Source: Siphonodentalium dalli (taxonomy: Eukaryota; Mollusca; Scaphopoda; Gadilida; Siphonodentaliidae). From it: a stretch of DNA of 64,000 nucleotides. Below the pieces are notes generated by a model. That model was given only the letters and a program-made list of their open reading frames with translations, was not told the DNA's origin and made no database searches. The stretch lies in the NCBI GenBank assembly GCA_032622095.1, contig CP136064.1, positions 218,378,205 through 218,442,204 on the forward strand. Direction: 5' to 3'. The stretch's first letter is position 1, and each line of letters opens with the position of its first letter. A program made the position numbers and the translations under genes. Of the stretch, positions 1,131 through 53,061 are shown piece by piece.

Positions 1131-3157
1131 CATTACGAATACGGATAGCTATTGGTATAGTCGCAGATCTATCCGCATGGCCAAAAAGTCCTTTCGCAAA
1201 ACGACTGGGGATAAGCGTTTTGACGAAAGCGTACCAGCAATATTTCGTACCAATTTTACAACTCAAATTAAGCTATACATCCCTTAAAACTTCACATGTC
1301 TCAGTGAATCATCATGACATGTTTATTGTCAATACTATGATCAGTCACAACGTACGACCCGGGATTCTCATGATATATTGTGGAAATACAGGTATACATG
1401 CCAGGTCATATGTGGTGGAAATTCAGTTCGTTGTTATCATGGATGATCTGATAGACGTAATGCTGATGGAGAAGAGGGGTTCCTAGATTAGGATCTGACA
1501 TCAATCACGAAGCCATCATTTCAAACCCCCTTCAAATCCGCGATTTGATTTGAATGCGATTTCGCTTTGACGGGCATCACCCTCTTTGGATTTATGAAAT
1601 GCGACAAACGGTTGATGTGCTCGGTGATGGACATCACTTCTGACTTGGTCCTATCAAATCGAACCAAAGTCGACGCGATGTGCACCGTGCCGAGACGTTT
1701 TCGCTACCCAAATAATTATGTTTTTTGGCGACTGGTTTCATTGTGGATGTACTTCTATAAGCTTTACGATTACCGCGAGGCTTTGTGTCGTCTGCATGCA
1801 GCCAGCGATGGCTATCCGCTGTGAAACTTATTTCGCGGGAAGCTCGTGATTCACGACGAATCCAGTGATTGTAAATCTAAACAGCACACCGATGTCGCAG
1901 CTGAATATAATGGACGGTTTACATGAGATATATTGACCAGTCTCGAACTGAGTAAAGTGATATATTGCATAAAATAAATTACAGGTGCATGTTATTTGAG
2001 CTTGTTAGAAACCATGAAATCGTAACCGTCCTTACGGATATTAAAATACGACAACGATTAGAAAGTACACAAATGTTGGCGACGTAGTACTCTATCCGTA
2101 TCCGTAATCGTGAGTTTTGCGAAAGGTCTCTATTGTCCAACAAGTAGACGAGAGTCTGTCACACCGCACGGAAACGCTGCATGATGTACAAACTGTTTTA
2201 ACGAATCCAAATCCATAAGGTCTAACTATGCTACACATATGATCTGAGAATCCAATGAAACAAAGCATTTTTTTTGTTTTTTTAACTGAATGTACGGGAG
2301 AGTTCATTCGAGAGCGAATGGGTTAATACGTGTATTATCATAGATATGCCTGCGCCCTCTTTTGAGGTCCCCGAGTTAATGCCAATACCATGTATCCTTA
2401 CCGGAAACTACGCAGTGCAGGGCTTCATCTGCATAATCTCACTAAGCTTTAGTTTATAACTGCTCTCGGCGAATGTTTCATTCCTGAAATTAAACATGTA
2501 TTTGCATGTCGTATTGATCCGGAACTTTACTACCGTTTCTGTCCGGCTTTATTTTTCGCTCAAAAGATCACGCAGGTCGACTTGATATTCTCAATAAAGC
2601 GCATTAGTTTTTTAATCGTAGTCAAATGTTCGTATTTCGGGTTCAGTTAGTTCATCCCGGGATCCGAGTTCAAACGTTGTGAATATATTTCGTACGCAGT
2701 TCGTTATGTCCTTATCAGTCTAACTCAAATTAAATTGGTTTATTGTTAAAATCAAATCAAATCATTTCTTTTCTTCATCACTAAGAACACAAGAACCCAT
2801 GATAAACCATTAATGTAAATCGGGTTTCCTGTGGACAAATGTGTCCCGGAATTTTGGGAATATAAAACTCTGCTTTCCCTTGTGTTTATTGATCTATACA
2901 GTGTAGAGCACACAGCCTCTTCGACAGGGTCCTAATATATAGATACAGTTATTGCATTTGAATTCAAATTTACGCATGAGACTTGCATTGCCGAAACTCG
3001 TTGTATTATAGACCAACACACATCTCTATATATGAAATATGATTGTACATATTTGCTATACGTTTCTCCAAAGATCAAACAAAACAAATTCTTTTAATAT
3101 AGAGACAGACCGATGATTTTATTTCTCCATTATTAAAGTTGAAAACCCCAGTAAGCT
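1131..3157. other. No recognisable feature
   Basis: About 2 kb without a recognisable gene or repeat. Small open frames at 1220-1486 and 1567-1824 (+) have no family resemblance and are treated as chance. The missing first exon of the K2P channel was sought here and not found. Confidence 0.45.
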
Positions 3158-3633
3158 TTAAAGGGACCCGAGGCACTCGCAATGTGTAAAAATATAAAAG
3201 TCTTTAAAAACACAACCATTAAGACAAATAAAACTGTTATTATATTCATTATTGATAGTTCTCCGATAACGAAATTTCGCGTGTTGAAACCATTGTTATG
3301 TAAATGATCAACAAACATCACTAATCTTGTAGTAATTTCAATTTTTTTAGTCTGAATGTGATTTTAACAAAGTTTTTCAATTTTCAATGTTTCGACCTTT
3401 TCCCATGTTTACCGTCAAGTTTTGGTTGAACCTTGGTATCTTATTAGGCTAATTTGACTTTTATCGGTAATTCCAGGTAACATTAATCGTTACATAATAT
3501 TGGTTTTGATATGCGATATCTCGTTATCAGAGAGTTATTAATACTGAAAATAAGAACAAAGTCAATATACATGTTCGCGTATTGATGACATTTGTTTTAA
3601 CCCATGCACTTTGAAGGACCTGATTCCCTTTAA
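3158..3633. mobile_element. TTAA-flanked MITE, family 3, copy 1
   Basis: A 476-bp unit begins with TTAAAGGGACCCGAGGC and ends with the inverted terminus ATTCCCTTTAA. The interior shares blocks with 11953-12460 in inverted orientation, including CGAAATTTCGCGTGTTGAAACC and the stretch with the CCCATGTTTACCG core. The 4-base TTAA at each end is the expected target duplication of piggyBac-like or Kolobok-like transposons. No coding capacity is seen, so it is a non-autonomous element. The superfamily is inferred only from the TTAA and short termini. Confidence 0.6.
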
Positions 3634-3649
3634 CCTATGTGATTACCAT

Positions 3650-4060
3650 GTTGTTTTCTTGAACATACGTCCATATTGAACGTATTTCAAAAACCAAAAT
3701 ACGCCCAAACTGGTATTATTTGAATCTGAATTACGCTCAAAAAGAACGCAAATGGGACACGAAAAAAGTCGTATATAAGCGTATTCATATTACAAATAAG
3801 TCCATATCAGGCGTATTTGATGCACTCCATACGAAATACGCCCATGTTGGCATTATTTAACCCAACTGTCTTTCATCGACACGACTCATCAGATAGACGC
3901 TGATTATAATGTGGTTTCGCTGCGACCCGCGCCATTCAACGGAATAACGGGTACACGCTCACTATATGGGCTAATTTTAGAAACAAATCCGACCAGTATG
4001 AACCTATGTGAACATTTACGTCCAGTAGGAACCTATGCAGGAGGATATTTTGGATTACCA
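3650..4060. repeat. Dispersed repeat with internal short direct repeats, copy 1
   Basis: Homologous by eye to 14375-14735 and, more weakly, 49600-49880. Shared anchors are AATGGGACACGA, CATCGACACGAC, the block GCGCCATTCAACG followed by AATAACG, and a closing GTCCAGTA-GAACCTAT. Each copy also contains several degenerate 20-35-base pieces of the type GTCCATAT...CGTATTT, so the unit looks like an old internally repetitive element. No coding frame is visible. Confidence 0.5.
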
Positions 4061-6408: not shown

Positions 6409-9034
6409 CGCTTGTTTCTTTAAGCGGTATGTATCATTCATATCTCACTGGTACTCGAGGCTCACATGCCCAATTGTACTGGTATACAGGATTTAACCAA
6501 ACGGTTGATATACGGAACGTTTACGGCATCGAATTGTTAAATTTTTCATAATTTCTTAGCCCAAAATAACCCTTGTTTATGCAATATTCAGCATCATACA
6601 TCTTGATTTAATGAAGTTATGGACATTACGTGATCAATGTGACGAACGTAGTACATGCAGTGTGGAAAAACTGTTATGAATTCTGTATCTTGACTATCTT
6701 CTTAACTGATACGAAGGATCCGATGTCTGTTCATGTAACCGGTATTTGTGATTCACGAGTTAGGGTGGATACACACATGCATGTAATCTCTGTAAATATC
6801 GTGTATTTGGCGTTTTACATGGATCATACAGACCATGTAATATGTGTCTGCTGATAACCCAATCATTGCGGCTATGTTTGACCACAGTGAGTAACGCTCT
6901 GAACGTGTAGAGTGTCGTTGGCTGGACGAAGTCGTCAGGCCGCTTAAAATAATTGTTCGCGCGATAACCCAAATGTTGGACGTTCTGTTTAAAGCATTGT
7001 CAGTCTTCTCTTGGTTGTATACCAGTGATGGTCCCAGGATTTCCACAATGCAGGGGCTATATTATACCGGAAGCTACCGGACTGACCATTACATATTTCA
7101 TCGACCGGAGGGGGGGGGGCATGCAGCAACATGAGGCCTACCCCCCTGAAGCCACGAAGCCACTCCTGATTTGTAAATATTGTAGTTGACAGTCATATCT
7201 GCCGTGCCTGTTTGCTACGAGTGATTAATCTCATATGCAGCAATTGATGCCATTCATATACTTATGAACATATTATTACAGCTTTAAATTTGAAGGTATA
7301 CAGGGTGGTGTTGCTGCATGTGTGTCTTCATTCGGGGAAAGGGTTGTCCAGATACGAGTCCACAACTACGTCACCTTTCCTCTCTTGTGTTATATACACA
7401 CAATTTACAACTATGGAATATTTAAGTAAAACATTATGTTGTACATTCTTGCCCAGATAATCCCGGCCGATACATTCAACTAAATCCCTTAGTTATTCGA
7501 AACTTTCGAGAACCAGCCCCCTCCCCCAATCATGGATTATAGTCCAAAATGTGATAATTCAAGCCTGTACAGGCTAAAATGGTGACAGTTAGGAACTTGT
7601 TCATCCTTTGGCCTGAGAAACATATACTGCTCTGTAAATTCTGGATTAAAATGGGGGGGGGGGGGGTGACTCTTTTTTCTTTCAACGTTGTACCTGCATT
7701 AATGTTCTTGGCGCTGTAATGGATATATGCAAATAAATCCCAATTGAAAGTTATCACATGAGCTCGCCCTCAAATTATCCGAGCAATCTCAACAAACTGG
7801 TATTGTCTGTCTTAATGTTCCAATGCCTGTATTCAAGGCATGAGAGCACCATTTCGGATTATTAAAATTTGAACTGAGGCCATGCATAGTCGAGGAACAA
7901 ATATCCTTATCCTGACTCGATTCGGCGGTGTCCGATTAGGCTAAATCACTTTATAACATGGAATTCACCATGTATGAGTTAGTTGATTGCCATGTGTATT
8001 AATATAGCACTTCCAAAATGTGGAGCCAGAAAGCCGCTCGGGTTCTGCTGGACGAGATCAAATTGGGAGTCAGTGTGTGGGGCATTAAACACTCATGTAT
8101 CACAATCGTCCTAAAATAGCTTCAAAAGTCTACACATTTATTTTTATTTTGGATGACCCTGTTTCCAAGAAATGACGAGAAACAAATCAAGTATAAAATC
8201 GACAGACTCAAATCCACTTTTCGAAATGAACTAAAACTCGTGAAAAACAGCAACATGTATCAGACAGGATTTATTCATTTCGGCACCCATGAAAAAAGAC
8301 ATGTTTATGACTGGCCTGAAATCTCTTGATAACAGTTAGTTTGATTTTGGCTTATAACCACTCACCGGTCTCGCCTGTTGAAATGGAACGATCGCGCGCA
8401 GGCGATTAATGCTATCAATGATTGGTGTGACCATGTAAAATACATGTATAATACATGTATTTTACATACAGACATTACATGCATGTGTGTATCCACCCTT
8501 ACGGGGTCCAACCTTCTTGCACATACGAATGGGACCATGGGTGTAGATTTGTCTGGTACATATGACATATGACATGTGAATGTAACGACATCTGATGTTG
8601 ACAGCTAATTTTCTTTGCACTCATATGTCTGGGTTGTTTAATGTGTCCATGCATGTGGTGCATTGGACATTGAAACTAACCTCCTACGTGTATAACACTG
8701 CTAAGTATATTATCCAAAGACCCTTAAAGCTGAACGAACCTTAGACCTGATCTAAAACTACATGTCTGCCTTTAACGATATATCATACATGTAAATCCAA
8801 TCGGCAATATCTTCCAAATGTATTCTACGTGCCCTAAATGTTGACTGTATCGTTTATATAAGATCCTGATCACCCCGTATATAGCAACATATTGATATGT
8901 TATGTAAATCGGGACACTTATATCAGATGAAGTGCTAACTTCGCGCCGAATTATTGAACTTGGCTGGAAGTTGGAATACGACTGTCACTTTTCAGACATC
9001 AATTTATTAACTTAAAATTTATTTTTCGTTTCAG
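6409..9034 (+). other. Sequence upstream of the K2P exon, presumably intron
   Basis: By position this is at least partly the intron before the K2P exon. It contains G/C homopolymers near 7101 and 7653 and a 35-base palindrome of the ACATGTAT type around 8431-8465. An inverted copy pair is present: a segment near 6764-6800 with GGGTGGATACACACATGCAT recurs as its reverse complement near 8471-8503. No exon with K2P M1 or pore-1 sequence could be recognised. The last bases before 9035 are a T-rich tract and CAG, a good 3' splice site. Confidence 0.45.
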
Positions 9035-9771
9035 GCTACGGAAATCTGACACCGAAGACAGACATGGGGCGATTTGCCACAATCATATATGCGCTTATTG
9101 GAATCCCAATGACAGTCATGTGTCTAACGAACATCGGAATGTCATTGGCGTCGTTGTTTCGTTTCTTGTATCGAAAGGGTCTTCAGAAAATCCGACTCGG
9201 GAGACGGAACGTTGGGACCGGTTTGCGAGAAGGCGTTCTCAACGCAACTGTTCCTCCTGTGGTTAAATTTAACGAGTCAGACGACTGCAACGTTAGTTCT
9301 GATTGCGTTAAACAACTATCATTGAAGTCGAACAACGGGACAGAACCATTTTTAAACAAACGAGAAACCGTTAAACCGAAAGTCCACAAACTATCAGACG
9401 GGCCGGTTCGAATCCCAATCGCGGTAACGCTCGGTGTTCTCATAGGGTATATATGCCTGGGTGCTTTCATGTTCACCCTCTGGGAGAAGGACTGGAGCTT
9501 TCTCATTGGAGCATACTTCTGTTTCATAACACTATCTACTATAGGTTTCGGCGACTTCGTTCCAGGCGACACCAGTGGATCGTATAACGACCAAGCTAAG
9601 CGCGTCATGTGCATGTTCTATTTGTTTTTTGGTCTCATGACTATAGCAATGTGTTTTGAACTAGTCCAGTCAGAAATTCGTCTTCGATTTCGTGAACTGG
9701 GTGAAAATTTGGGAATTATAGAAACAAAATCAGCTGCACCGCGGCGTTCTAAGAAAGTTTCCAGAGTGTGA
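9035..9771 (+). CDS. Two-pore-domain potassium channel (K2P), 3'-terminal exon
   Basis: This encodes the C-terminal three quarters of a K2P background potassium channel, a plasma-membrane protein that sets resting potential as a dimer. The exon starts after TTTCGTTTCAG. The first two bases complete a glycine codon, so the frame opens with the YGN part of pore filter 1 (phase-1 intron inside the GYG), the intron position conserved in KCNK genes. Numbering from the Met at 9064: M2 about 4-26, an 80-residue cytoplasmic loop, M3 about 117-140, pore 2 with TIGFGD at 159-164, M4 about 181-203, and a short basic tail ending at residue 235 before TGA. M1, the extracellular cap and half of pore 1 are missing and must lie in unseen upstream exons. 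Both visible filter pieces (YGN and GFGD) look functional. The subfamily is not assigned; the GFGDFVPG pore is compatible with several invertebrate groups. Confidence 0.93.
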
Positions 9772-12582: not shown

Positions 12583-13150
12583 AGAATGAGGTCCCCAGTG
12601 GATGGATTTAGTGATGCTGTCTCTAACAGCGGGCTAGCATAATTAGATTCACCCTCTGGGGACCTAATTCTGCTTAGGCCTCATATCCTGGGAAGTATCT
12701 ATAGTCTCAAATTAACATTGATTTGGTTACTTTTTACCTTTTGGGAAGTTTCTATATCCCCTAATAAAATACATAATCGAGGTGACTGATGGGTGAACAT
12801 CACCAATAACAATTGGTGAACTTCAACCTGATCATCGTTCTCCCATATCAGTTGAGACCAAGCAGAATGAGGTCCACGGCGGGCTAGCATCACCAAATTC
12901 ACCCTATGTGGACCTCATTATGCTTAGGCCTCATATCCTGGGAAGTATCTATAGTCTCAAATTAACATTGTTTTAGTTACTTTTTACCTTTTGGGAAGTT
13001 TCTATATCCCCTAATAAAATGCATAATCGAGGTGACTGATGGGTGAACATCACCAACAGCAACTGGGAAACTTCAATCTGATTCTAGGTCTCCCATAGCA
13101 GTTGATGTCTAAGCAGAATGAGGTTCACAGAGGGTGAATTTGGCGATACT
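12583..13150. repeat. Tandem duplication of a ~250-bp unit with inverted-repeat borders
   Basis: The block beginning TAGGCCTCATATCCTGGG occurs at 12675 and again at 12925 and is nearly identical for about 190 bases. Each unit is separated by a short palindromic module bounded by GCAGAATGAGGTCC and GGACCT-ATT-TGCT (12583-12674 and 12864-12924, with a partial third at 13115). This pattern could arise when a small foldback element is duplicated together with its flank. Confidence 0.7.
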
Positions 13151-23460: not shown

Positions 23461-24438
23461 AAAACTGTGTCAAGAATTCAAGAATTGCCCGACCTGTGCC
23501 TGTGGTGACCAGTTACCAAACTCAAGAACGTTTAGACCAATGTCAACACATATCAACCACTTACCCACTCTTAATTGGTGCCCGGACGAACGAAGAATGT
23601 ATTAAATTTGGTCATTTATTAGTATAAGTCGCTCTTGTACACGGAACTATCAGAATAATTGAGCCGCGAAATTATTGATTATTTTCGAACCGAGCGGTCA
23701 CGTGACTCTGATCGGAAGCAAAGAATTTACGGCTACAAAAAAAAGTGTACCCAACTCCGGAAACATGAACGTATGATTGGTGTTATTGGGCCATGAAAAT
23801 CTGCAGTAGCGTGTTTTTTCAACGCTTAGTATACAGCATAGGGGTATTATTTATTTACAAGAGACAGCTAAAACAAGCTGTAATCGGCAAATTGTATTCT
23901 CGGTTCATTTTATTAGTTGTTCGGGTACGGCAACCGATCACACGTGTTAGTGTTACCGGTATAGGAATGGGGTATCGCGAACTTAGGAAACGCAACGGGA
24001 CTCCAGTGAAAACCTTTGTAATTTTGATTTAGCAGTAGGAAACTACTATTTTCAACTTTTACTAAGTTCAGACAATTGATGTTCGCCTTACTGAAGCTTT
24101 AATTTGGATCAGCGGCGAAATAACAAGTAGTTTCAGAACAAAGTTTGATGTAGTGTTCGTTACTATTTTTAGTAGTCAAAACTACATATGCATAGTGCAC
24201 GATGGGAGAGACTTGAAGGCGTGGTATACAACTACGTCTAATAGAGTCGAGTAGCCAACCAATCGGAAAGCTTGATTTCAATAACAAAGTCACGTGAGAT
24301 ACAATATTGCTATATATGGGTTATGGATGATTTGATAGCTATAACATTTGGTGGGGTTTATGTGATTTTTGGTTCGTCTTAACTGATGTTGGAGCAGGGT
24401 TTTGTCAAAGGGGTATTTTCTTCATATATAAATCAATA
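23461..24438. other. No recognisable feature
   Basis: No gene or repeat recognised. Short frames on both strands lack motifs. Confidence 0.4.
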
Positions 24439-24727
24439 TACATATACATACACATACATATATATATATATACATATACATCATATACATACATATACAT
24501 ACATATACATAAATATACATACATATACATACATATACATACATATACATACATATACATACATATACATACATATACATACATATACATACATATACAT
24601 ACATATACATACATATACATACATATACATACATATACATACATATACACATACATACATATATATATATAGATACGCACATACATACACACCCTCATAC
24701 ATATACATATACACATATATATACATA
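24439..24727. repeat. Decamer microsatellite (ACATACATAT)n
   Basis: About 290 bp of nearly uninterrupted ACATACATAT units are flanked by (TA)n-rich edges. It adjoins the 3' end of the minus-strand LINE (24927-26910), separated by about 200 bases that would be its 3' UTR. Open frames across it, Tyr-Ile-His or Cys-Met-Tyr repeats, are artefacts. Confidence 0.92.
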
Positions 24728-24926
24728 TGGTAGTCAAGTGTTGGTCAGCTACTCTGGAAGACAGTACATACTGTAGATCAAAATTACAGAGAACTGGTGA
24801 TTGAGTGGGGAGTAGGTCCATAAGTAGGGAGCCAGTAGATTACTAAACTGCGTAGTTCATATATTTACCGGTGTATATACTAAGCCAATTTGAAGTCCTT
24901 CCTTGAGGATATATTTTGTTTTAAAT
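24728..24926 (-). mobile_element. Probable LINE 3' UTR
   Basis: About 200 bases lie between the LINE coding remnant (ending in TGA at 24927 on the minus strand) and the decamer microsatellite. This is where a CR1-like 3' UTR would sit; elements of this class often end in short tandem repeats. No second copy of this segment was found in the window to confirm the boundary. Confidence 0.4.
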
Positions 24927-25327: not shown

Positions 25328-25894
25328 TCAGTGATTATTTTGGGAAGACTTTTTGTAATGTTCTGTATTACAGAAATATGAATAAAATTTGCCGGGTCGC
25401 CTCAAGTTGTAACCCGACACCTCGTTTGCTCTAGGGGGAAGTGTAGATGCTAGATAGGATGGGGCTTGTTCGTTTACTATTTTATAGACTAGTTGCAGTT
25501 TGTGTATCTGTCGCCTTCTATCAAGAGAAGGCCACCCCACTTCCTGCAGAACTGTGTTATTAGATGCAGAGCGAGTGATGCCACTGACAATCCGCCCAGC
25601 TTCAATGTGTAGTCGGTCGAGCTTATCCAGGAGATATTGCGGTGCGCTGTCCCACACTACGTCTGAGTAATCAAATAGGGGTAGTATATACGTTTTATAG
25701 ATAATTCTGTTAAGTTGGTACTTCAGGCGCCTTAGTTGAGCTAGTCGAGATGCAATCCGATTTACCAGGCCGTCGATATGGGCATTCCAATTGAGGTTTG
25801 ACTGTAGTTCCAGACCAAGGTGTTTATGCGTGTCAACAAACGATATTGTTTCATCGGCGAACTTAATTTCTGGGTGTTTTGTTTTCGGGGTCAT
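25328..25894 (-). pseudogene. CR1-like LINE, RT thumb/C-terminal region
   Basis: A 188-codon frame starts right after the endonuclease frame. It contains the post-palm region of non-LTR reverse transcriptases: THKHLGLELQSNLNWNAHID (residues about 21-40), YILPLFDYSDVVWD, and RRRQIHKLQLVYKI. The palm core with the YADD box is absent: the frame begins just before the KHLG block, so several hundred codons that should separate it from the endonuclease are deleted. The product cannot be an active polymerase. Confidence 0.88.
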
Positions 25895-26910
25895 TAATGA
25901 GTAGAAAATTCCAACCGTTTTTGTCGGGTTCTCACTCTGTCACGCTTTTTTATCTCACGTCGAATGTCTGAATTAAGCCAAATTTTGTCTGATGTTCTCA
26001 CTGTTACAGTTGATTGTGGAATTGTTTTCTCCATTATAGATAAGAATTCCGTATGGAAATTATCGACTGCTTTATTTACATCTGTTGTGTGATTTATGAG
26101 ATCATCCCAGTCTACTGATTCGAGTAAGCTATTTGCATGTGAAAAGTTAGCCTTTCTATAATTCCACACCTTTCTTTCGAATGATGGTGCCCGGGTATTA
26201 TCGAAAGATATTGTAGCGTAAACACCTAGATGGTCTGAAACCCCAAGGTCTAAAGTATCAGCGTCTAGAACTTGCATAATCTTGGAGGTAATAATGGGAT
26301 CGAGGAGAGTACTTGATGTGCTGGTTACTCTGGTGGGAACCGTAATAACATTTTTCATACTAAAACCATCTGTTATTTGTTTGATCTTCGAGGAGCTGTC
26401 CAAAAAATTGGAATTAAAATCGCCAGTGATGACTACATTTTCTGAAATATCAAGTGCGTCAGAAATTTTGGATTCAAGTAGTTCCCAATAATTTGTGGCA
26501 CAGAAATCTTCAGATCTATAGGATACCCCGAGTATAATGCGGGTTTTTATAGAGTGGATTTCAAACCATAGACACGATGAGTCGAATTTTAGTTCAGTTT
26601 TCCGATTGAAAATGAGATGATCAGCAAACATTACGCAAATGCCCCCTCCATTAGAATCACGGTCTTTGCGGATGGGAGAACTATATCCAGGGATTTCTAG
26701 CTGGTTTGATGGGTATGACGGGTCAAGGTGGGTTTCCGTAAAACATAACACATCATACTCGTTTATTAAGTCTGAAATTTTTCCTAATTTATTACGGATA
26801 CTGCGAACGTTGTAATGGAAAATGGAGATTGTGTTGTTGACTGTCGATAGCGGAGGCCCATGGTTAATTTCAATATCTCCTGATAACATTAATATTAAAA
26901 GAGTAAACAT
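25894..26910 (-). CDS. CR1-like LINE ORF2 N-terminal region: apurinic-type endonuclease
   Basis: A 338-residue frame is one exonuclease/endonuclease/phosphatase domain of a non-LTR retrotransposon, which nicks target DNA to prime reverse transcription. Signature residues all look present: N34 (HYNVRS), E59 (FTETH), Y131 (SYRS), D164 and N166 (GDFN), D204, and S225-D226-H227. Residues 4-19 are hydrophobic followed by SGDIEINHGPP, which resembles the 2A-like D-V/I-E-x-N-P-G-P motif seen at the N-terminus of some CR1-type proteins, but with His for the first Pro. An in-frame TGA lies four codons upstream of the Met. The end, after KKRDRVRTRQKR, is abrupt: the RT palm is missing by internal deletion. 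Confidence 0.9.
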   Translation of the reverse strand: MFTLLILMLSGDIEINHGPPLSTVNNTISIFHYNVRSIRNKLGKISDLINEYDVLCFTETHLDPSYPSNQLEIPGYSSPIRKDRDSNGGGICVMFADHLIFNRKTELKFDSSCLWFEIHSIKTRIILGVSYRSEDFCATNYWELLESKISDALDISENVVITGDFNSNFLDSSSKIKQITDGFSMKNVITVPTRVTSTSSTLLDPIITSKIMQVLDADTLDLGVSDHLGVYATISFDNTRAPSFERKVWNYRKANFSHANSLLESVDWDDLINHTTDVNKAVDNFHTEFLSIMEKTIPQSTVTVRTSDKIWLNSDIRREIKKRDRVRTRQKRLEFSTH

Positions 26911-27800
26911 AAATATATATCAAGGACTCAATAGACTGAAAGCTCCAAAATTCAGACTGCCGTTTTTTTGCAGTTTCGATATGTGACTTTCTTTTTGCTG
27001 AATCGAAAATACCAATAGCTGCCCTATACTGATTCAGGACACACGTCATTTTTCAGACGATGGTTCGAAACCAGGATAGGGCAGGAACTGGACTTCGACT
27101 CTGCAAACGTTACAATACTGATATGAATATATTTTGGCAACCCACAAATGGACCAAGGGGTATGGTGCTTGATCTGAAAATGTTCAGAAAAGGTTTGGCA
27201 ATTGGAATAAAAATGGTTCGAATTTATGCTGACATGTAGGAAGTATGAAATAAAGAAAACATAATGAAGGCATAGAATATGAAGCAAATAATATATACAT
27301 AATGATGATGGATGATGATAGTCGGCATGATAATTTCATCGCGATTAGTTTTCGGCCTACAACGGGTATTTTGTTGGGATTAATTTTGACAACAATATTA
27401 TAAAAGTAGAATAAATTTGTCCATTTGCTATTTAGGTCAGGGGAGAAAACAGCTGAAACGGACATGCACAACCGCCGCGGACGTAGTATATCCTCACAAA
27501 TATCGTCATTGAAGAAACTTAGATTGATCTTTAGTGTCGTGATGTGCGAGGTAGCTTTCGGGATAATGTATTTACACATATATATCCTCAAAAGGGTAGA
27601 GATCTTGTGTCGGTCCGGTCATCCATATAGTGGTTTCGACTTTATTCCATCTTATCTTTATTTTGTCAGATTTGAAATGATCAATTAGAAAGAAAAAAAT
27701 AGTCAGGAGAGATATCTTATTCAGCGTAGATTTCCCCCATTCATATAGATTGTCAACATTCGATAGGAAATTATTGTCATCACGGTCTACCATACTACGT
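26911..27800 (-). other. LINE upstream flank with unassigned frames
   Basis: Overlapping minus-strand frames at 27572-27793 (73 codons) and 27184-27591 (135 codons) lie just upstream of the LINE endonuclease on the same strand. The first begins with VDNLYEWGK, reminiscent of the segment after YADD in other LINE RTs; the rest is not recognised. They could be another LINE scrap or 5' sequence of this one. Confidence 0.25.
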
Positions 27801-39745: not shown

Positions 39746-39940
39746 GTAAATTGACCTGTAGTGTTTGATTATATTGTGTGAAGGGCAGGTTGGTCCTTTT
39801 CAATTTTACAATGGGATGTCACATACTATTATACCGGCTGATCTGTGAGCATTTCATTAGAATTATTTTTGGATTGCTAAGTATAATTCATAAAAACATT
39901 CTAGCTTAGGGCTATGATATGGATATATGAAATTAAATTT

Positions 39941-40680
39941 TCCTTAGGTATTAGTAGGTTTTAAAGATGTATTTATAAATGGGTAAAGGGGCATTTATGT
40001 TCAAGATGACTGATATCAAATGCTTGGCACAATTGTGCATTTCATATGATGAATACAGCAAACAAATGTTCAATTCTTATTGAAATGTCATCTTATAACT
40101 TGGATTTGGTTGAATTCAGTTAAATCAGTTTCTCAAAATTGGAGCGTTAAGGAAGAATTGGATCGGTGGAAATGTTTATTGGGACTCAAACATTCAATAG
40201 GAAAGTTTAGCTATTTCCTTAGGTATTAGTAGGTTTTAAAGATGTATTTATAAATGGGTAAAGGGGAATTTATGTCTAAGATGACTGATAGCAAATGATT
40301 GGCACGATTGGGCATTTCATATGATGAATACAGCGAATTAATGTTCAATTCCTATTGCAATGTCATCTTATAACTTGGATTTGGTTGAATTCAGTTAAAT
40401 GAGTTTCTCAAAATTGGAGCGTTATGGAAGAATTGAATCAGTGGAAATGTTTATTGGGACTCAAACATTCAATGGGAAAGTTTGGCTATTGTCAGACTGT
40501 GGAGTGGGGTATCTGTCTCGGATGATATTTTAGAGGGATTTAAATGTCTAAAATTGGAGCGTTATGGAAGAATTGAATCGGTGGAAATGCATAATGGGAC
40601 TCAAACATTCATTGGGAAAGTTTGCCTATTGTCAGACTGTGGGGTGGGGTAACTGTCTCAGATGACATTTTAGAGGGAAA
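39941..40680. repeat. Nested tandem duplications, 275-bp and ~138-bp units
   Basis: The block TCCTTAGGTATTAGTAGG begins at 39941 and again at 40216, with about 270 bases of near identity following. The end of the second unit (AAAATTGGAGCGTTATGGAAG) is duplicated again about 138 bases later, with the tail GTCAGACTGTGG-GTGGGGTA. This suggests two successive tandem events. No coding frame is recognised. Confidence 0.88.
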
Positions 40681-47269: not shown

Positions 47270-47583
47270 CACGAAGTTTCCACAAATGACAGCGTACTGG
47301 AAATCGCTTTGTTTTCGAGATAAATGTTTGAACCGCGTCAAATATTTTAATATTTTCACGATGACTGAGTTCCTGTGCTCCAATCAAAAGAGTATTTCTG
47401 ATCAAATAACATTCGGTATGGGGTATAGAAGTTCAGTCCTAGGAGCATGTATTCAGGACATTCCAACAAGTAATGATGTGATGTTTCTATTTTCCCACAA
47501 TGACAGAGAGGGGACGTTTTATTGTGATTACTCAATCGGTCATAGTTCAAACTACTGCATTTCAATCTTAAGTGCGAATTGAG
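47270..47583 (-). pseudogene. LINE ORF2 C-terminal relic (cysteine motif and tail)
   Basis: The minus-strand frame ending at 47356 reads CSSLNYDRLSNHNKTSPLCHCGKIET, SHHYLLECPEY, the Cys/His motif that ends CR1-type ORF2 proteins. In another frame just downstream, IKIFDAVQTFISKTKRF gives the usual terminal block. The rest of ORF2 is not attached, so this is a short 5'-truncated, frameshifted copy. Confidence 0.68.
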
Positions 47584-47845
47584 TACTTGTGATATGCGAA
47601 ACTTACTGTGGTAATAGTAAATAAAAATTGTTGTTGTTCTTGTAATTTGGGGTTTGGAAGCCCTAACACGTCTTTAATCACTTAAGCAATGTCCCAACTA
47701 CTGCATTTCAATCTTAAGCGAGAATTGAGTACTTGAGATATATATGCGACACTTACTGTGGCAATAGTAAATAAACTGTGTTGTTGTTGTAATTTGGGGT
47801 CTGGAAGCCAAAACACGTCTTTAATCACTTAAGCAATGTCCCCGG
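47551..47845. repeat. Two-copy tandem duplication, ~146-bp unit
   Basis: AACTACTGCATTTCAATCTTAAG occurs at 47551 and 47697, followed in both by GAATTGAGTACTTG, CTTACTGTGG-AATAGTAAATAAA, GTAATTTGGGGT and ACACGTCTTTAATCACTTAAGCAATG. The duplicated unit begins inside the LINE C-terminal relic, so the event post-dates that insertion. Confidence 0.88.
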
Positions 47846-50959: not shown

Positions 50960-51797
50960 GTGTTGTTATTGTACTATAACACATTGGTTATAGAGGATAA
51001 TGATTTTCCCCTTGAAATTGATAGCTTGAATTTGAGAGTTTTTGAAAATTAGCGAATGGGGCGCCTCCATAAGAGTTTCAATTTCTTTAATCTCTTCACA
51101 TTCCATGGAGTTTAGAATTGGTATAGTTTTTCTCGCATTCATCTGGACATTTTCGATCATATTTGATAAATATTTCTTCTGTGGAGACCACACACTTGAC
51201 TCCAGCTAAGGTCAAACCATCCCTTTTAACACCATAGTACATATTTGTTCCTCTAGATTGACAAAAGCCATTATCACCGTACCCACTGCGTGGTCTACTT
51301 GGATGTCTATATATTCAGCGAATGTTATTGCTCCGTCATTTGTAACGCCTACCTATTGTTCTGAGTTGGCTACATTTAGTTTGGAAATTGTGCAATCCTC
51401 TCCCGTTATTGTGTAGATTGTTTGGTCCTCCGACGGTTTCTCTGATATTTGTACGCAATTACATTTAGCTGGGTGGAATTTCATAAGCCATTTATTACTC
51501 CACTTACTAAGGCATCACTGTCCATTTGGAGTTGTATCTGGTCTTCTACGGAATGAATTTCTCGATAGATTGTGGTGTCGTCAGCATACATATATGCTCG
51601 ATTTTACTTCCTTGGGAAAGTCATTAATGTATATTGTACATATGCTGCAACATTCTCAATCTTTTGTATATATCTTCTAATTGTATCTCAATATCTATTT
51701 GATAAGAGAATAAACGTATTATAAGAGGACCGGGCCTAATACTTTTCCTTGGAGTATGACACGTGTTACTTGGTGCCACGCTGATGATGTTCCAATG
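50960..51797 (-). pseudogene. Decayed LINE (element 2), RT palm and C-terminal part
   Basis: Read on the minus strand downstream of the foldback insertion, this is a CR1/L2-like reverse transcriptase with several frameshifts and stops. Blocks in order: GKVLGP (motif before the catalytic loop) near 51745, YADDTTIYREI (catalytic box, near 51590), KWLMKFHPAKC near 51480, VWSPQKKYLSNMIENVQ and ARKTIP near 51110-51190. The order and spacing match the family. Because of the decay it cannot encode an active enzyme. Confidence 0.8.
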
Positions 51798-53052
51798 GGT
51801 TACGTAGCGGTTCTCCGAAGACCCATAACTCCGAAGATCCGATTCTCCGAAGGTCCGATTCTCCGACGCCCCGATTCTCCGAAAGCCCATAACTCCGAAG
51901 TCCCGATTCTCCGAAATCCCATAACTCCGAAGACCCATAATTCCGAAGACCCATAACTCCGAAAGCCCATAACTCCGAAGGCCTATAACTCCGAACGCCC
52001 ATAACTCCGAAGGTCTATAACTCCGAAGGGCCGATTCTCCGAAGATCCGATTATCGGAAGATCATGTTTTATCGCTTATTAAATAGTGTACAGTCCAGTG
52101 GCGGAGTCAATGGGGCCCTAGGGAAGACCGCCCCCCAAAAAACATGTCAAATGTCATGTAAACGTCAGGAAATCCCTCCTAGGCATTCAAATATTCACAG
52201 TGTTCCTGCCCAGGGGAGCCACCGGACCAACGATTGGGGGCGACCCCTCCCATGCATGCGCTCCCCAAATCAGGCCTTCGTGATATGCTTTCGGCATATC
52301 ATATGCATGATATTTCCCCCACATATCCCCCACATATGCTAATTAATGTGCACCCCTAAATGGGCACCCTGGCTCCGCCACTGGTATGCACCGGGTATAT
52401 TATAACGAAACGCTGCAAGAATGTCAGATGAACATGTACATGAATATCCACGTTCACCCCTGTACATTTACTCTGGCATCTCATGGGCCAACGTAACGTT
52501 ATAGTATCTGGTGTATAGTCAGTGGCGGGCCAGGATTCCCATTTAGGTGGGGGAAGTAGGAAAAGTTTGAATATTTTGATGCCCCATGAACGATTTCCGG
52601 GCGTTTACATGACATTGGACATGTTTTGGTAGGGGCCCATATTGTCTGAAATAGCAAGTAGAGGTTTAATGGGGGCAGTAGGAATTTTGGGACCCCTTGG
52701 CTTCGCCACTGGACTGTACACTATTTAGTAAACGATAATATCCCGATAAAACAAAATCTTCGGAGAATCGGACCTTCGGAGAATCGGATCTTCGGAGTTA
52801 TGGGCCGTCGGAGAATCGGGCCTTCGGAGTTATAGGTCTTCGGATAATCGACCCTTCGGAGTTATGGGTCTTCGGAGTTAAAGGTCTTCGGAGAATCGGC
52901 CCTTCGGAGTTATGGGCTTTCGGAGAATCGGATCTTCGGAGTTATGGGCCGTCGGAGAATCGGGTCTTCGGAGTTGTGGGCCGTCGGAGAATCGGGTCTT
53001 CGGAGTTGTGGGCCTTCGTAGTAATAGGTCTTCGGAGAATCGGTCTGACACC
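51798..53052. mobile_element. Foldback transposon with 16-bp subterminal repeats and 9-bp target duplication
   Basis: A 1,255-bp unit lies between identical 9-base repeats (GTTCCAATG at 51789-51797 and 53053-53061). Its ends begin GGTTACGTAGCGG and, inverted, GGTGTCAGACCG, each followed at the same distance by TTCTCCGAAG. Each arm is then an array of 16-bp units of two types, AGACCCATAACTCCGA and AGATCCGATTCTCCGA, about 15 on the left and 18 on the right in inverted orientation. Inside the arrays, AAATAGTGTACAGTCCAGTG pairs with its complement. The 9-bp duplication and GG ends fit Mutator-like or Drosophila FB-type foldback elements. No transposase is encoded. Confidence 0.85.
52096..52711. 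repeat. Central loop of the foldback: two CAGTGGCGGAG-bounded modules
   Basis: Module 1 (52096-52383) starts CAGTGGCGGAGTCA and ends TGGCTCCGCCACTG; module 2 (52520-52711) starts CAGTGGCGGGCCAGG and ends GGCTTCGCCACTG. The spacer 52384-52519 is itself palindromic (TATGCACC...ATAACG against CGTTATAGTA...GGTGTATA). CAGTGGCGGA termini resemble those of many short hAT-like MITEs, so the loop may hold nested elements or be an extension of the palindrome. Confidence 0.6.
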
Positions 53053-53061
53053 GTTCCAATG

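Follow-up and report, generated by a model that had tools for sequence, protein, structure and literature searches.

A foldback transposon family of Siphonodentalium dalli with two types of 16-bp unit and a probable origin from FLYWCH-bearing Mutator-like elements

Introduction

The described systems that come closest to the transposon treated here, a foldback element of 1,255 bp with GG termini (positions 51798-53052 of a 64,000-nucleotide stretch of the Siphonodentalium dalli genome, hereafter the window), are animal members of the Mutator superfamily, whose target-site duplications (TSDs) measure 8-11 bp (PMC6446971). Muta1 of Aedes aegypti is a Mutator-like element (MULE) that its authors class as a type-2 Foldback; it makes TSDs of 8/9 bp and moves in yeast (PMC5225508). 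Tm1 of root-knot nematodes has been assigned to the Mutator/Foldback elements, Phantom subclass, and carries asymmetric 7-bp terminal motifs (PMC3169594). The Phantom group is described with TSDs of 8-10 bp, terminal inverted repeats (TIRs) of up to 613 bp, a FLYWCH domain in some members and minisatellite sequence in aphids (PMC6446971). Foldback elements of sea urchins are mentioned as well (PMC4079207).

The window corresponds to C4:218378205-218442204; the genome comprises nine contigs and 2.23 Gb. Its foldback element very probably belongs to an animal FLYWCH-MULE family (Mutator superfamily) with long foldback TIRs, as a non-autonomous member that has undergone an internal deletion. A first-pass annotation made from the letters of the window had guessed at a Mutator-like or FB-type foldback, and this guess is supported by two genomic copies in which the left terminus and arm of the family are followed by a gene with FLYWCH and MULE domains. 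The family is a new one within an established kind of transposon; its architecture has precedents, and novelty is confined at most to the two unit types.

Structure of the window element

The two ends of the element, GGTTACGTAGCGG and, reverse-complemented, GGTGTCAGACCGA, contain TTCTCCGAAG at an equal offset, while the two terminal 13-mers have GGT and little else in common ahead of the arrays. The arms form an inverted repeat of 262 nt with 75% complementarity and a 16-bp period. The inverted likeness extends with gaps past the arrays to the centre, the consensus matching itself in inverted orientation at 11-321 versus 1211-906 (80%), at 19-409 versus 1235-775 (70%) and within 557-764 (70%). 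In the consensus, the TIR halves measure about 650 and 617 bp; the left half of the gene-bearing copy L098, described below, has 749 bp. The first-pass annotation had thus correctly read the GG starts with TTCTCCGAAG at the same offset, the exact 9-bp duplication at both edges and the inverted arrays built from 16-bp units of two kinds (Table 1).

These units are TCCGAAGrCCCATAAC (A) and TCCGAAGrTCCGATTC (B). The pattern CTCCGAAGNCCCATAA, allowing at most 2 mismatches, matches the window 18 times, always within the element, compared with a mean of 0.10 in shuffled sequence. The two types had been called alternating. This describes the right array, whose 17 units change type 13 times (permutation p about 0.02); in the left one, alternation is not above chance (5 changes in 15 units, p about 0.94-0.95). 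When one arm was folded as a single strand, it formed less self-structure than its shuffles (z +6.1). Within each inner half lies a segment (52095-52386 and 52520-52712) whose boundaries, CAGTGGCGG...CGCCACTG, resemble the ends of a further small transposon; the left segment is also present in L098, and no clear duplication was seen.

Table 1. Parts of the foldback element and its target-site duplication (window positions)
Feature	Position	Strand	Remark
Left copy of 9-bp target-site duplication GTTCCAATG	51789..51797	.	
Left terminal motif GGTTACGTAGCGG with lead-in to first unit	51798..51813	+	GGTTACGTAGCG also terminates gene-bearing L098 and L099
Left array, 15 units of 16 bp and one degenerate, ABBBABAAAAAAABB(b)	51814..52069	+	
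Left inner half of long TIR, with CAGTGGCGG...CCGCCACTG segment	52070..52428	+	L098 likeness up to L098 2276
Private internal-deletion junction with short filler	52429..52450	+	GAACATGTACATG also at L098 6426-6438
Right inner half of long TIR	52451..52748	-	
Right array, 17 units of 16 bp and one degenerate, outside-in AABABABABAABABABB(b)	52749..53037	-	
Right terminal motif, reverse complement GGTGTCAGACCGA	53038..53052	-	
Right copy of 9-bp target-site duplication GTTCCAATG	53053..53061	.	

The element interrupts a long interspersed nuclear element (LINE), whose reverse transcriptase code had been described as lying in one frame on both sides. Locally this is the case, as the stretch ending ...SSAWHQVTRVILQGKVLGPVLL runs in a single frame across the junction of the reconstructed empty site. 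However, AFDNVPHRRL upstream and YADD downstream of this junction, which we take to be reverse transcriptase motifs, lie in a frame other than that of the junction stretch. Because the frames differ around the junction, the LINE is an old, frameshifted copy.

Genomic copies and target-site duplications

Used as a query, the whole element yielded 1,443 first-look candidates in the genome; 40 of these were scored, and the analysis covered 40 copies, the window copy and 39 others, chosen as the closest to it. One of them (L047) has no left end and was excluded from the end and age counts, leaving 39 copies; three more (L018, L035 and L043) repeat the flank of another copy and were excluded from the duplication count, leaving 36 distinct loci. 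Independently of this sample, 26-base end patterns with at most 3 mismatches matched 1,102 left and 1,100 right ends in the whole genome, whereas the reversed patterns used as controls for both ends gave no match.

Of the 36 distinct loci, 33 have an exact TSD, which measures 8 bp in 23 cases and 9 bp in the other 10. At the remaining three, L023, L026 (7 of 8 bases match) and L037, there is no exact duplication. The 9-bp duplication claimed for the window copy is exact, but across the family 8 bp is the commoner length. Since both lengths lie flush with identical element ends, the stagger itself varies. A check for copies that end elsewhere or lack duplications, which the first-pass annotation had proposed, left its boundaries standing in view of these 33 two-ended loci. 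Among eight further copies outside the 36, exact duplications of 8 bp flank L082-L085 and L094 and one of 9 bp flanks L093, and none was found at L092 or L095. The duplication is preceded by A or T in 21 of the 23 cases of 8 bp and in all 10 of 9 bp, in flanks with an A+T content of 0.64; a stronger target sequence was not seen by eye in the list of duplications.

The copies are much alike. Divergence from the majority consensus amounts to 0.4-2.9% in 38 of the 39 and to 3.9% in the window copy; 30 copies differ by only 0.4-1.5%, in a sample that is biased towards window-like copies. Judged by these values, the sampled copies look young. The left order ABBBABAAAAAABBBb and the right order AABABABABAABABABBb each occur in 21 of 39 copies, and array orders common to so many copies indicate that most of those sampled descend from one form. 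Left arrays consist of 15, 16 or 17 units in 36 of the 39, and right arrays exceed 18 units in five copies, with 20 or 22 units. Four loci combine the left end with a B-like first unit and are otherwise ordinary-looking members with both ends and 8-bp duplications. Truncated copies (L047, L079 and L081) are expected of a decaying repeat.

Gene-bearing relatives

Candidate partners were sought by a genome profile search with the MULE domain (PF10551), which gave 150 scored matches from 813 first-look candidates; the places examined were L081, L090, L091, L096, L097, L098 and parts of C3:79.53 Mb. In L098 (C7:200395000-200401500), the left terminus of the family at position 1552 is followed first by some 22 array units and then by the inner half, which follows the consensus as far as position 654; the likeness to the consensus is 82% over 1-266 and 87% over 11-654. 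Behind this left half lies an open frame of 423 codons with both domains, i.e. MULE (PF10551) in 2564-3832 with 56.3 bits (cut-off 27.6) and an N-terminal FLYWCH (PF04500) with 24.4 bits (cut-off 23.6). A GT-AG intron of 1,686 bp with the splice sites AAG|GTATGT and TTTCAG|G links this first exon to a C-terminal one, yielding a predicted transposase of 470 aa in two exons. Its DDE residues (D..D..E) were presumptively assigned by analogy with MULE motifs.

A second such locus, at C3:79.53 Mb (L099/L100), also holds an open frame of 423 codons that matches PF10551 (C3:79528247). It matches L098 starting exactly at GGTTACGTAGCG, with 96.5% identity in the left part and 98.9% over 2 kb behind the gene, while the outside flanks are unrelated: the C7 flank ends ...CAGTATGGT and the C3 flank ...TTTGAGAC. 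As in the window element, alternation in the left array of L099 is not above chance (13 changes in 23 units, p 0.30). With regard to the autonomous partner for which a search had been suggested at the outset, the left terminus of the family was read in two gene-bearing loci, and both ends together with a duplication in L094, a copy treated below that carries a piece of the gene's 3' region.

With L098 2320-3900 as the query, 40 of 82 candidates were scored; among these, C7, C3:79.5 Mb and C5:183.75 Mb contain the gene part over the entire query. In the same set, it is nearly full-length at C2:169.77 Mb, in two pieces at C3:254.16 Mb and partial at C3:278.98 Mb and C1:236.09 Mb. The matches comprise 54 rows, and the shorter pieces, which stem mostly from the 5' end, may be deletion derivatives.

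Other candidates were set aside. The family array was not seen in L090, L091, L096 or L097. L081 1-5801 (C1:214.71-214.73 Mb) is a 5,075-bp tandem repeat that contains a truncated left arm of the family, an insert resembling a miniature inverted-repeat transposable element and an unrelated MULE; it was dropped as a partner because its MULE block recurs in L090 and L091 without the arm. In L090, this block belongs to a separate MULE element (1546-3857) that is flanked by the 8-bp duplication GCCTACGC and has similar ends, GGGTATATCCTGTCTACCC and the reverse complement of ...GGGTGAACAGGACGACCCC; L081 and L091 contain the same coding block at 97-98%. The longer or unpaired copies L078-L081 and L092-L095, considered as gene carriers, are tandem, nested or truncated copies with the exception of L094; L093 bears a secondary insertion and L095 a longer right array.

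Probable loss of the gene by internal deletion

L094 (C1:198.02 Mb), a copy of 1,574 bp, has both ends of the family and is flanked by the exact 8-bp duplication AATTTTAT. A stretch of 212 bp (538-749) that separates its left part from its right half matches L098 6289-6500 at 95.8%. L094 thereby joins sequence from the 3' side of the gene to the right half of the family, so that the 3' region of the gene-bearing form very likely continues into that half. The same 212 bp are a suitable probe for other intermediate deletion forms.

In the common form of 1.27 kb, the two halves are joined at a two-base overlap (GA) at about position 653 of the consensus, where the likeness to L098 ends. The window copy has a different junction, in which the left part reaches the equivalent of L098 2276 and is followed by about 22 bases, 13 of which (GAACATGTACATG) are also present at L098 6426-6438, before the right half begins. 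The junction spacing is 37 or 38 bp in 30 of the 39 copies, 20 in one and 23 in the window copy; seven were unparsed. Based on these sequence comparisons, the most plausible reading of the common form is that of a Mutator-superfamily element shortened by internal deletion, the common and window junctions would represent separate deletion events, and the filler in the latter appears typical of interrupted repair.

Weighing the assignment

Several features place the family. Its duplications of 8-9 bp fall within the range of 8-11 bp given for the Mutator superfamily, its long TIRs consist of short tandem repeats with a distinct terminal motif as in type-2 foldbacks, and the gene-bearing partner has a MULE domain while the short copies lack the gene, as in derivatives. 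The N-terminal FLYWCH zinc finger of the Phantom-like group is just present. Some observations weigh against the assignment. The FLYWCH score barely exceeds its cut-off. The gene-bearing copies were read from the left end through the gene, and for the 3' side the evidence is L094. The gene part has no match in any of the 39 short copies, and the family is hence tied to the gene solely by the TIR and L094. The pairing in L081, probably a chance event, shows that adjacency alone can mislead. Moreover, binding of the units by FLYWCH is argued by analogy, and the genome-wide dominance of one form is extrapolated from 39 copies chosen by likeness. The 8/9-bp duplications were measured on the short copies.

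GG termini combined with 8/9-bp duplications would equally suit a foldback of the Merlin (IS1016/IS1595) type according to the published definition, and a profile search did find 62 PF12762 matches in the genome, with two families at such loci having one shared-sequence boundary that begins with GG or ends with CC. However, a TCCGAAG array was present within 1.5 kb in none of 30 PF12762 loci (of the 62), which had at most three heptamers per strand, and the copies with the family left end in L098 and L099 enclose a MULE gene. A Merlin origin is therefore largely refuted and very improbable. This leaves the question whether that gene might merely be a passenger, acquired in a single insertion of an unrelated MULE into a family member that moved later, with another transposase driving the family. 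MULEs are plentiful in the genome, as the 813 first-look candidates indicate, L081 probably combines a family arm with a different MULE by chance, and L098 is known from its left side through the gene. Yet the left flanks of L098 and L099 differ at the exact terminus, which argues that the gene-bearing form was itself mobile. No separate MULE termini were seen between arm and gene by reading, without a dedicated search. Since L094 connects gene-side 3' sequence with the right TIR half and the duplications of 8/9 bp fit MULEs, we likewise give the passenger explanation very little credence.

Finally, the tandem arrays, the three of 39 copies with a repeated flank and the tandemly repeated pieces in L078, L081 and L092 could suggest a satellite-like or segmentally duplicated repeat that is not mobile. 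This is refuted, and practically without any remaining probability, by 36 distinct flanks, fixed termini and 33 exact duplications. An internally deleted FLYWCH-MULE family thus remains by far the preferred interpretation.

Proposed mechanism and the two unit types

For this FLYWCH-MULE family, a scenario may be drawn as follows. The transposase from the few long copies would act in trans and recognize the ends of the short ones, its FLYWCH zinc finger probably binding the repeated 16-bp TCCGAAG units. These units probably hold transposase binding sites, a putative role proposed because the TIR repeats of Galileo bind the DNA-binding domain of its transposase. The enzyme would then excise the element and insert it where the target is cut with a stagger of 8-9 bp. 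The gene could have been lost by internal deletion, probably through interrupted repair, which would have brought the two TIR halves together at a junction in the centre. One short form may subsequently have come to account for most of the roughly 1,100 copies, while the window copy would derive from a separate deletion event.

Whether the two unit types are more than drift is another matter. That they constitute a functional code seems unlikely, as alternation above chance is confined to the right arm and absent from left arms including that of L099. If there were such a code, a dimer of A and B (32 bp, about three helical turns) would keep transposase contacts of two different kinds on the same side of the double helix.

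Another foldback, which lies beside a MULE, was noted at L090 3910-4833 (one copy). It has inverted arrays with units of 15/16 bp, CGGACATTTCCCCAC(C) (also given as CGGACATTTCCCCACC) and CGGACATTTACCCAC, a FLYWCH remnant between the arrays (PF04500, 38.7 bits) and the 8-bp duplication TTGTTAAG on both sides. This sibling element also combines a two-variant design of 15/16 bp with a FLYWCH remnant; under the same unlikely reading of the units as a code, paired-unit arrays may be a recognition scheme common to these FLYWCH-MULEs.

The family offers a worked case in which a gene-less foldback repeat is tied to gene-bearing partners in one genome, and L094 together with the central junctions suggests how loss of the gene produced the short form. 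It is also a good natural test bed for the role of tandem units in MULE TIRs. The known transposon types are unchanged by the finding.

Other features of the window

A 10-bp tandem repeat (ATACATATAC) occupies 24438-24728 with about 29 copies. At 12629-13128, 39939-40490 and 47550-47842, segments of about 250, 275 and 147 bp, respectively, are duplicated in direct tandem. An endonuclease open frame on the minus strand (25894-26919; PF03372, E 5.7e-13) probably belongs to a LINE. An exon-like open frame at 9016-9771 contains two Ion_trans_2 stretches and is presumably of the two-pore potassium channel type.

Comparison with known systems

According to the first-pass annotation, alternating arrays of two 16-bp unit types are not known from a described family. 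Short tandem arrays as such have been published for MULE TIRs; the use of two unit types is possibly new. A search of open-licence PubMed Central papers with words of 12-13 letters from the family listed four papers, each with a single word and a title on another subject, and no printed description of the family was found there. The TU elements of sea urchins also have foldback arms.

Among the systems compared, Muta1 shares with the family its duplications of 8/9 bp and a TIR that is composed of a short terminal motif and short tandem repeats. Its 12-bp units with spacers of 3-4 bp give a period of 15-16 bp, near the 16 bp found here, and it likewise has hundreds of non-autonomous derivatives of variable internal sequence. 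The family differs in its longer TIR, its two unit types and its terminal 13-mers, which are largely dissimilar beyond GGT (PMC5225508). Tm1 resembles the family in combining FLYWCH and MULE domains, in asymmetric terminal motifs outside the inverted repeat, in tandem units (13-15 bp) of variable number, in gene-less short derivatives and in the lack of a clear target consensus. In contrast to the mostly 8-bp duplications of the family, those of Tm1 are mostly 9 bp (8-10), and it has one repeat consensus and other motifs (PMC3169594).

Rehavkus, too, includes minisatellite sequence within the element; unlike the family, it is characterized by a PHD finger and 9-bp duplications (PMC6446971). 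Long, internally repetitive TIRs are further known from Galileo of Drosophila, in which the repeats hold extra transposase-binding sites, but this element belongs to the P superfamily and encodes a P-type transposase with a THAP domain (PMC3688188). Against this background, what seems particular to the Siphonodentalium family is its pair of unit types, the length of its TIRs and the success of one deletion form.
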